Positions 11,418-13,668 of a stretch of 37,671 bases of DNA are shown piece by piece. The stretch is taken from NCBI RefSeq assembly GCF_016282985.1, contig NZ_JAEELZ010000059.1, positions 1 to 37,671 on the forward strand. The letters are read 5' to 3'. The position numbers and the translations under genes were made by a program. The notes under the pieces are model-generated. The model had not been told where the DNA came from. It was given only the letters and a program-made list of their open reading frames with translations, and did not search any database. The DNA comes from Methanosphaera sp. (GTDB lineage Archaea > Methanobacteriota > Methanobacteria > Methanobacteriales > Methanobacteriaceae). Within the stretch, counting starts at the first letter, position 1; the number at the start of each line of letters is the position of its first letter.

Positions 11418-11918
11418 ATTAAAACGTCCTACTTAAATGTTCTATGAAATAAATTTTATAATCTAATTCATTTTTAGTATATAAGTATATTTAAGATATA
11501 TAAGTTATTTATAACTTATGATAATTCATGATAAATAGGGGTTATTCTTTTCCATGAAAGCTATATTTTTTTTTTATTTTGTTGATTATCTTGGATAAAA
11601 ACATAAAATTTTTCTATGAAAAAATGTTCATATGTTCTTTTATTCCATCATTATCTGTTTAATTAATTCTTTTTCATACTGTGGGGGGTAAAGTATAACT
11701 CATTCTTTATAATATCAATTTTTTTGAATTAATTATTAATAAAACTTTATTAAAATCATAGGTATACTCATTAGGGTTATATTAAGTATTTATATTGTTA
11801 TTGTTAGATTATTAACTAGAAATAAATAGTTTAATATTTCAAAAAAATGAATATTTTAATCAAGATTATTTTGATTAAGTATGAATACTTAAATTCTTTT
11901 ATAAAATGGAGGCATAAA
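11418..11918. other. Long divergent intergenic region (gap / cbiM)
   Basis: No gene is visible in these roughly 500 bases. The notable structures are a 20-bp perfect palindrome at 11500-11519 near TATA-like stretches of the gap promoter, an isolated G6 run at 11683-11688, and a TATA-like stretch (AAGTATTTATATTG, about 11788-11801) suited to cbiM. No recognisable cobalamin or NiCo riboswitch was found. Confidence 0.3.
11500..11519. promoter_or_regulatory. Perfect palindrome upstream of gap (operator candidate)
   Basis: ATAAGTTAT-TT-ATAACTTAT is a perfect inverted repeat with a 2-nt centre, 83-102 bp upstream of the gap start and overlapping TATA-rich sequence. The size and symmetry suit a dimeric repressor or activator site. 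Confidence 0.35.
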
Positions 11919-12536
11919 ATGCATATACCTGATGGATTGATATCTGATCCCTTACAATTGGGGATATATACCGTAATTTATATTATTTTGTTGGCAATAT
12001 TATTGAACAAATATCGTAAAAATCATACTGAAAAAGACATTCCAGTAATTGCACTCTTTGCAGCAGCTATCCTGATTGTTCAGCTTGTTGAAATTCCATT
12101 GCCTGTGCCTGCATGTGTTCACATTTCATTAATAACAGTAATGGCTCTTTATGATTTGGAAGCAGCACCACTGGTCTATACAATAGTAACTATAGCACAA
12201 TCATTCCTTGGAGAAGGTGGAATAAGTACTTTGGGGATGAACTTATTAAACTTAGCAATTTTAGCACCAATATTTGCATATTATATTTACAAGTTTATAC
12301 AAAGTTATGATAAAAATTTAGCACTTTTTGTATCCGGGTTCGGAACAATAACTTTACTTGGTATAATTGTAAGTTTAGAATATGCTATTGCAGGAACTTA
12401 TCCATTAATGTTTGGATTAACAGTAATTACTCCAATAGAAATGGTGGTTGGGGTAATAGAAGGACTTGTAACAATAGTTGTAATGAATGCGCTCAATAAG
12501 GTAAAACCAGAATTAACACCAGTACTTAACGAATAA
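11919..12536 (+). CDS. cbiM: CbiM, substrate-binding subunit of a Co/Ni ECF transporter
   Basis: Membrane S-component of an energy-coupling-factor transporter for Co2+ (or Ni2+). The 205-residue protein starts MHIPDGLISD, the hallmark N-terminus in which the amino terminus and His2 help bind the metal. About six or seven hydrophobic helices follow, with the conserved PVPACVHIS segment and the SFLGEGGISTLGMNLLN loop. An upstream in-frame ATG at 11847 would add 24 residues in front of this metal-binding terminus, which the family does not allow. The ATG at 11919 has GGAGG at 11908-11912, six bases upstream. CbiQ, CbiO and a normal CbiN are not in the window. The next gene, one base after the stop, is a small exported His-rich protein. 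Confidence 0.92.
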   Translation: MHIPDGLISDPLQLGIYTVIYIILLAILLNKYRKNHTEKDIPVIALFAAAILIVQLVEIPLPVPACVHISLITVMALYDLEAAPLVYTIVTIAQSFLGEGGISTLGMNLLNLAILAPIFAYYIYKFIQSYDKNLALFVSGFGTITLLGIIVSLEYAIAGTYPLMFGLTVITPIEMVVGVIEGLVTIVVMNALNKVKPELTPVLNE

Positions 12537-12546
12537 GGTGAAAATA

Positions 12547-12768
12547 ATGAACATGAAATCTATAATAATGATGGTGTTAATAATATTGGTTGCATTAGTA
12601 GGAGTATCAAATGCATTACACACTTATGAGGAAGGAACCATTACTTTAGAAGAACATCATCATGAAGGTGAAGAACATACTCATGAACATGAAGAAGGTG
12701 AAAAACATACTCATGATCATGAAGAAGATCATCATGAAGAGAGTGAAGAACACAATCATTCAGAGTAA
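12547..12768 (+). CDS. Small exported His/Glu-rich protein, putative metal-binding partner of CbiM
   Basis: A 73-residue protein with an N-terminal hydrophobic signal/anchor segment (IIMMVLIILVALVGV) and possible cleavage at SNA/LHT. Its exposed part has about 14 His and 18 Glu in patterns such as HHHEGEEHTHEHEE and HTHDHEEDHHEE. This is the composition of a Ni/Co/Zn-binding peptide. The ATG at 12547 is preferred over the in-frame GTG at 12538, because GGTGA (12537-12541) is a good Shine-Dalgarno five bases upstream and overlaps that GTG. It starts right behind cbiM, so the two are translationally linked. It lies where cbiN often lies but has only one hydrophobic segment. It may gather metal at the cell surface for CbiM. 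The function is inferred from composition and position only. Confidence 0.75.
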   Translation: MNMKSIIMMVLIILVALVGVSNALHTYEEGTITLEEHHHEGEEHTHEHEEGEKHTHDHEEDHHEESEEHNHSE

Positions 12769-12802: not shown

Positions 12803-12867
12803 TTTTAATTTGAAAATCAAATTAAAAATAGTCTTTTTCTTAAAGCAAGATTATCTTGCTTTTTTTC
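12803..12867 (+). terminator. Two tandem hairpins ending the cbiM operon
   Basis: The first is a perfect 10-bp stem TTTTAATTTG (12803-12812) / CAAATTAAAA (12818-12827). The second is an 8-9-bp stem AAGCAAGA (12843-12850) / TCTTGCTT (12854-12861) with loop TTA, running directly into a T-run. The second has the form of an intrinsic terminator. Confidence 0.6.
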
Positions 12868-12920: not shown

Positions 12921-13283
12921 TTAGTTTTTAATTTCTTCAGAAACATAGTAACCTATGATTCCACCAATAGCACCTACAATAAGGTATAATACGATTAAAT
13001 AAAATGAGTTACTTAACATGTAAGATACGTAAGCAGAACCATATAATATAAACATAAATCCTACGTTTATTATTGTAGTTATTATTGAACCAATAAATGC
13101 AGTAATTAAACCGGCTACCAATGCTTCGATTTTATCATTATTTTTTATAAAACCCATTAATATTCCTGTAAAGAAAACAAATGGTAAAATACTAGTACTT
13201 AAACCACCAGCAAGATATGTTATTATAATTATAATTACTCCTAAAGGTATGCTTTTACCTTTAAGAACTTGATTAATGTCCAT
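12921..13283 (-). CDS. Small four-helix membrane protein (DUF5518-like), copy 2
   Basis: 120-residue hydrophobic protein with about four membrane segments and a short charged C-terminus (YYVSEEIKN). It begins MDINQVLKGKSIPLGV. The gene directly upstream encodes a protein with the same plan, so the pair is a tandem duplication. Glycines are spaced through the helices (GGLSTSI, GAIGGIIGYY), as in the small DUF5518-type membrane proteins of Methanobacteriales; that assignment is from memory of the family pattern. The ATG has GAGGTTA upstream. Four bases separate it from the upstream stop. The function is unknown. Confidence 0.75.
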   Translation of the reverse strand: MDINQVLKGKSIPLGVIIIIITYLAGGLSTSILPFVFFTGILMGFIKNNDKIEALVAGLITAFIGSIITTIINVGFMFILYGSAYVSYMLSNSFYLIVLYLIVGAIGGIIGYYVSEEIKN

Positions 13284-13287
13284 AGTT

Positions 13288-13668
13288 TTAACCTCTATTG
13301 TCTATTTCTTCCTTTATGTAGAAACCGATAGCACTACCCACACATCCTATGAATGTATAAAATATTATGTAAATCCATGAATATTGGATTACTGCTATGG
13401 CATAAAGGCCACCTTCAGAATAGTATACATTGATTAATGATACTATCATAGTCAGTATTGAACCAATAACAAATGCAAGGAAATTACTAAGTAATACTTC
13501 GTTCATAGTGCCTTTTTTTATTATTCCCCCCACTATTCCTATAAATAATATTGAAGGAATAATAATGGAACTGTCACCTGTTAACAGAGAACAAGCTAAA
13601 ATCATTAATATGATTAAGGCAATACTTTTTCCTTTAATGATATTTTTAATGTTAATATTATCATTCAT
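13288..13668 (-). CDS. Small four-helix membrane protein (DUF5518-like), copy 1
   Basis: 126-residue paralogue of the following gene. It begins MNDNINIKNIIKGKSIALI, sharing the KGKSI motif before the first helix, and ends with GSAIGFYIKEEID, matching the GGIIGYYVSEEI of the second copy. About four membrane segments are predicted by eye. It starts 39 bp after the end of top6A on the same strand, with AGGG next to the ATG, so it may be read through from the topoisomerase operon. The function is unknown, and any link to topology control is only positional. Confidence 0.75.
   Translation of the reverse strand: MNDNINIKNIIKGKSIALIILMILACSLLTGDSSIIIPSILFIGIVGGIIKKGTMNEVLLSNFLAFVIGSILTMIVSLINVYYSEGGLYAIAVIQYSWIYIIFYTFIGCVGSAIGFYIKEEIDNRG

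Follow-up and report, generated by a model that had tools for sequence, protein, structure and literature searches.

The window analysed here, a 37,671-nt stretch of a Methanosphaera sp. contig (NZ_JAEELZ010000059.1), carries on its + strand a CbiM/NikM-family gene, cbiM3 (11919-12536; 205 aa), and behind it a gene for a 73-aa one-helix peptide with a His/Glu-rich tail (12547-12768, ATG to stop). An earlier note, made from the sequence alone, had described CbiM followed by such a 73-residue peptide, and we confirm this: the PF01891 profile matches CbiM3 with 149 bits (cut-off 23), spanning 1-205 of 205 positions, and the peptide holds 14 His and 18 Glu. The cbiM3 stop codon TAA occupies 12534-12536; as that note had also read, it is directly followed by a Shine-Dalgarno sequence (AGGTGA, 12536-12541, +), which overlaps the end of the TAA, and the peptide gene begins 10 nt past the stop. 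The pair is isolated, the upstream gene being divergent and the downstream gene convergent, and the transcript probably ends at a hairpin and T run (12842-12866, +). Ahead of cbiM3, we found a degenerate version (11763-11781, +) of the promoter box TATACC(C)YNTATAGGGTTATA seen upstream of other cbiM3 genes, and a TATA-like box TTTATATT (11789-11796, +) whose position behind the promoter box is kept in relatives. Altogether, cbiM3 and the peptide gene look like a two-gene unit. Downstream of the TATA box, and still ahead of cbiM3, comes a perfect palindrome, TTAAGTATGAATACTTAA (11875-11892); it is absent in the nearest relative (G015), and AAGTAT/ATACTT-type halves resembling its own are found upstream of nikMN on contig C105. 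Past the unit, DUF5518-like membrane proteins are encoded as a tandem pair on the - strand (12921-13668), the second of which scores below the Pfam cut-off.

CbiM3 starts with MHIPDG and has sequence relatives of known structure in the PDB, NikM2 (4m58) and CbiM (5x3x). Its AF2 model (pLDDT 82.8) superimposes in Foldseek on 4m58 with a TM-score of 0.80 and on 5x3x_m with 0.79. Residues M1, H2 and H68, invariant across all aligned CbiM3, align with M1, H2 and H67 of NikM2, which we take to be its metal (Ni) ligands. The best reading is that CbiM3 is a transition-metal ECF-type S component, going by its family probably for Ni or Co. In CbiM, the substrate is bound by the first two residues and the pocket is outward-facing (PMC6828968). 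CbiM3 is only 26-34% identical to the other two CbiM of the same genome, which are Ni- and Co-type; this distance, together with the Ni- and Co-type systems already present, the His/Glu tails commonly seen in zinc carriers and the boxes at feoA and a Cd/Zn-type ATPase discussed below, would suit a CbiM3 that has drifted to Zn or Fe(II), with the tail serving that metal and not Ni or Co. Such a drift nevertheless seems unlikely to us, given that the three residues lining up with the Ni ligands of NikM2 vary in none of the aligned CbiM3.

In the peptide, all on the + strand, residues 5-24 (12559-12618) form a hydrophobic segment that, from sequence and alignment, would be a signal anchor or a signal peptide, SNA|L being a possible cleavage site. 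The stem ALHTYEEGTITLEEH (residues 23-37; 12613-12657) is conserved in the alignment of 8 genomes with the pattern AL[HN]xYExxxxTLEEH, in which A23, L24, Y27, E28 and T33-H37 are invariant. The tail (12655-12765) varies in length and order and is constant in make-up, as composition, relatives and constraint indicate. The His and Glu residues are all confined to the last 49 residues, and the peptide would be expected to hold 1.2 His at the window frequency of 1.6% (binomial P ~1e-11). With a single N-terminal hydrophobic segment preceded by K4, the tail would lie outside the cell. An alternative upstream start in the ORF listing, GTG at 12538, would give 76 aa; we prefer the 73-aa start because the Shine-Dalgarno sequence and the relatives back it.

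The peptide has orthologues in 8 genomes. Its helix and stem show dN/dS values of mostly 0.03-0.4 with many synonymous changes between copies, while the tail changes faster, including by indels, and is His/Glu-rich in 8/8 copies. This pattern argues for a real gene, whose stem is constrained in sequence and whose tail is constrained in make-up. The AT-richness of the genome, the shortness of the ORF and the repetitive tail could have hinted at a chance ORF or a misread frame, but start, frame, stem and make-up are retained in the 8 genomes despite the many synonymous changes; because of this conservation we regard that reading as already refuted and leave it next to no probability.

The peptide stands where CbiN would be expected, as the earlier note had proposed, since in the class other cbiM genes have cbiN or nikN in this slot; by sequence, it is no CbiN. 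Indeed, the CbiN profile (PF02553), which gives the genome's own CbiN 97 bits, has no match to the peptide up to E = 1, and the PDGLE NikN profile (PF13190), which gives the genome's own NikN 60 bits, does not match it either. Matches of the peptide in Pfam, NCBIfam and PHROGs were composition-driven and under every cut-off, and we discarded them.

None of cbiN, cbiQ and cbiO is present in the neighbourhood of cbiM3, in line with the earlier note, which had called for a search for cbiQ and cbiO elsewhere in the genome. This search located a complete cbiMNQO on contig C74 and a second CbiQ-family gene on C10, with nikMN on C105. As the genome already has a complete cobalt-type and a nickel-type system, the need for both metals, which that note had offered as explanation, does not account for the pair. 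In this assembly (G000) a NikQ-like gene lies at a contig end (C10:8065-8603, L038), apart from nikMN (C105:11537-12450, L004); in G014 and G006, the NikQ-like gene follows nikMN. G003 and G007, with assemblies of one and two contigs respectively, encode 4 CbiM and 2 CbiQ, and both CbiQ belong to the nikMN and cbiMN operons. CbiM3 is without a dedicated T component, near-closed genomes included, so that it would act alone or borrow one. A complete group I ECF system would have its Q and O genes in the same operon or else a T component of its own at another locus; CbiM3 has neither.

The gene after the other cbiM of the class is cbiN, a PDGLE-type nikN or a gene for an exported protein of ~160 aa; of 25 such further CbiM genes, none is followed by a His-rich ORF or carries a His insertion at its N-terminus. 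The exported ~160-aa protein (SHGVD...) follows a fourth CbiM type (MHLPDGII), found in Methanosphaera and in one genome of another genus (G022), and is thus a CbiM partner other than CbiN; a search with its first 105 aa gave no Pfam match. At the loci of this fourth type (L151, L156-L160), a ~233-aa membrane protein comes next in 5/6.

Among the 20 Methanosphaera genomes of our sample, 17 have CbiM3, in 18 genes (two in G015). The peptide is present in 8/20 genomes, each time directly behind cbiM3 and starting between -11 and +12 nt relative to its stop. A profile made from its first 44 residues and searched over 151 genomes of the order gave 8 strong matches (E < 1e-21), all 8 adjoining CbiM3, and nothing comparable beyond them, the rest having E 2e-5 or worse and lying mostly within longer frames. 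A contig scan picked up seven loci from Methanosphaera/Methanobacteriaceae plus a single short match of bacterial origin, and the named loci closest to CbiM3 are Methanosphaera MAGs. The gene pair is restricted to one genus, Methanosphaera. The earlier note had made its case depend on the same pairing in related genomes: this stands for 8 Methanosphaera genomes and fails for 10/18 CbiM3 genes, including that of G014, presumably M. stadtmanae.

Three of these peptide-less CbiM3 (those of G009 and G012 and the second of G015) carry in cis an insertion of 30-34 aa with 5-6 His (e.g. GANPFSEVAEHGHEHAHEIIEHSPAGHALF), located between MHIPDGLI and the first helix; in the AlphaFold model of a CbiM3 with such an insert, residues 1-38 have pLDDT < 50, too low to be informative. 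Neither peptide nor insertion is found for 7/18 CbiM3 genes, and a His-rich device is thus dispensable. Both forms occur together in 0/18 genes, an exclusion that is weak and not significant on its own, as it would arise by chance in ~15% of cases even if the genes were independent. In a CbiM3 tree built after dropping the insertion columns, the trans carriers form one clade (support 80/80) and the cis carriers another (88/90), and "His-rich anywhere" versus "none" is a single change. A His-free short stub is present at the insertion site in the trans members G013 and G003. The simplest history would be that the His-rich device arose once and later switched form, two separate gains being a less simple alternative.

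CbiMN is a minimal cobalt transporter, in which the loop of CbiN is positioned over the CbiM pocket (PMC7689651). We propose, with about even confidence for and against, that the peptide in trans, or the insertion in cis, captures metal externally for CbiM3 and would act like this loop. The N-terminal helix would hold the peptide in the membrane or send it across, displaying the conserved stem and the His/Glu tail outside the cell. The tail would gather divalent metal and enrich it locally around the outward-facing CbiM3 pocket, made of the N-terminal amine, H2 and H68, and the peptide, in contact with CbiM3, would thereby perform the metal-loading job done elsewhere by the extracytoplasmic loop of CbiN. 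CbiM3 would then transport the metal, presumably inwards, acting alone or sharing the QO module encoded by the two remaining operons. In the sister lineage, a similar segment is fused into CbiM3 itself, close behind MHIPDG (behind residue 8); an insertion beside the metal-liganding N-terminus fits surface capture and handover. What counts against the capture device is that the peptide has one helix, CbiN two, and that no profile links them. Conservation is much stronger in the stem than in the tail, as might be expected if the peptide were a structural or assembly partner that meets CbiM3 through its helix and stem, with a loosely kept and dispensable His tail. Yet the His/Glu make-up is retained in 8/8 tails despite indels, and the unrelated cis segment of the sister genes is likewise His-rich, which makes a purely structural role improbable. 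More tentatively than the capture function, we suggest that the locus encodes a CbiN-free two-part S unit, in which CbiM would be combined with an external His/Glu metal antenna and would work without a dedicated energising module; over evolution, this antenna would have switched between a separate anchored peptide and an in-frame insertion at the N-terminus that binds the metal.

The upstream region adds to this question. A 24-nt palindromic box, TATACCTATACCCCTATAGGTATA, is present in 2-8 copies per Methanosphaera genome, with no matches for reversed controls, and is a candidate mark of a metal regulon. It neighbours csoR, a Cd/Zn-type P1B ATPase gene, feoA, small one-helix genes and some cbiM3; among the loci of the box survey (L175-L203), sites are found in G014 (C1:1120591, C1:1143759), G008 (C2:62425, C2:83263, C2:83499, C1:1172785) and G000 (C113:86313, C137:8465). 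A conserved one-helix family of 39-46 aa (FYLHIYExxPIYxP, e.g. L119:2135-2269, - strand), for which there is no Pfam match, is mostly found right behind csoR and the box. The similar L[HN]xYE motif of the peptide led us to compare it with the csoR-linked one-helix proteins of 40-49 aa, and homology was rejected (hhalign probability 2.8%, E 0.016, 12 columns). NikR is encoded in 20/20 Methanosphaera genomes. CsoR operators are described as G-tract pseudopalindromes (PMC3902906), and by this analogy CsoR is a plausible, putative reader of the box.

An intact box close to TATACCTATACCCCTATAGGTATA stands upstream of cbiM3 in G014, G008 and G019 only. G014 has exactly two genomic matches at <=3 mismatches, one at cbiM3 and the other at a gene for a small one-helix protein that follows a CsoR/DUF156 repressor, and a box of G008 precedes a Cd/Zn-type P1B ATPase, a type that exports heavy metals. 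These sites would be in keeping with a metal-excess or stress module, in which the peptide would be a metal-buffering surface sponge and CbiM3 part of a homeostasis regulon, not of starvation uptake. This rival has to be reckoned with but is the less probable one in our view: the box upstream of cbiM3 is degenerate in the peptide clade, it is also found at feoA, an iron-uptake gene, in two genomes, CsoR binding to it is something we infer, and no CbiM homologue is known to work other than as an importer. For the uptake reading itself, the sharing of the box between the cbiM3 of some peptide-free relatives and a CsoR-linked regulon counts against plain starvation uptake; the unit may answer to metal excess or to starvation, and we hold a plain uptake role with lower confidence for this reason.

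The locus resembles the cobalt transporter CbiMNQO (PF01891 and PF02553), in that one operon encodes CbiM and, at once behind it, a small membrane protein, part of which lies (in the peptide, would lie) outside the cytoplasm. It differs in that the peptide has a single hydrophobic segment in place of the two helices of CbiN, a His/Glu tail and no sequence relation to CbiN, and in that cbiM3 is without Q or O, in its operon or dedicated in the genome. NikMN (PDGLE, PF13190) and NikKL illustrate that the partner of CbiM/NikM is replaceable by unrelated extracytoplasmic proteins (PMC2667541); NikN, NikK and NikL, unlike the peptide, have no His/Glu-rich tails and are accompanied by a QO module. 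In Mycoplasma genitalium, a Fur-controlled His-rich lipoprotein, Hrl, was proposed by the authors to be linked to ECF-dependent nickel uptake (PMC6968530). Hrl and EcfAA'T (MG302-304) thus tie an exported His-rich protein to an ECF metal system, as would be the case here, and may be a partial precedent by analogy: Hrl is a lipoprotein encoded at a separate locus and Fur co-regulated with A and T, with no S component found, whereas the peptide is paired with an S component that has no A and T. Low-complexity His segments are also tied to metal transport in RcnA, ZnuA and ZIP carriers, and the cis form would be such a loop; these belong to other transporter families, and here the His segment also exists as a protein encoded by its own gene.

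Altogether, the observation of the earlier note is confirmed and its interpretation is partly supported. A CbiM with an exchangeable external partner is a kind already known, of which the His/Glu peptide or insertion appears to be a new variant. For the question of how CbiN or NikN loads metal into CbiM, a minimal natural pair with a simple His/Glu tail in their place, in trans or in cis, would allow a need for a shaped loop and a need for no more than a high local metal concentration to be tested directly against each other. The pair would also add a metal-acquisition or metal-stress trait that varies among rumen and gut Methanosphaera species.
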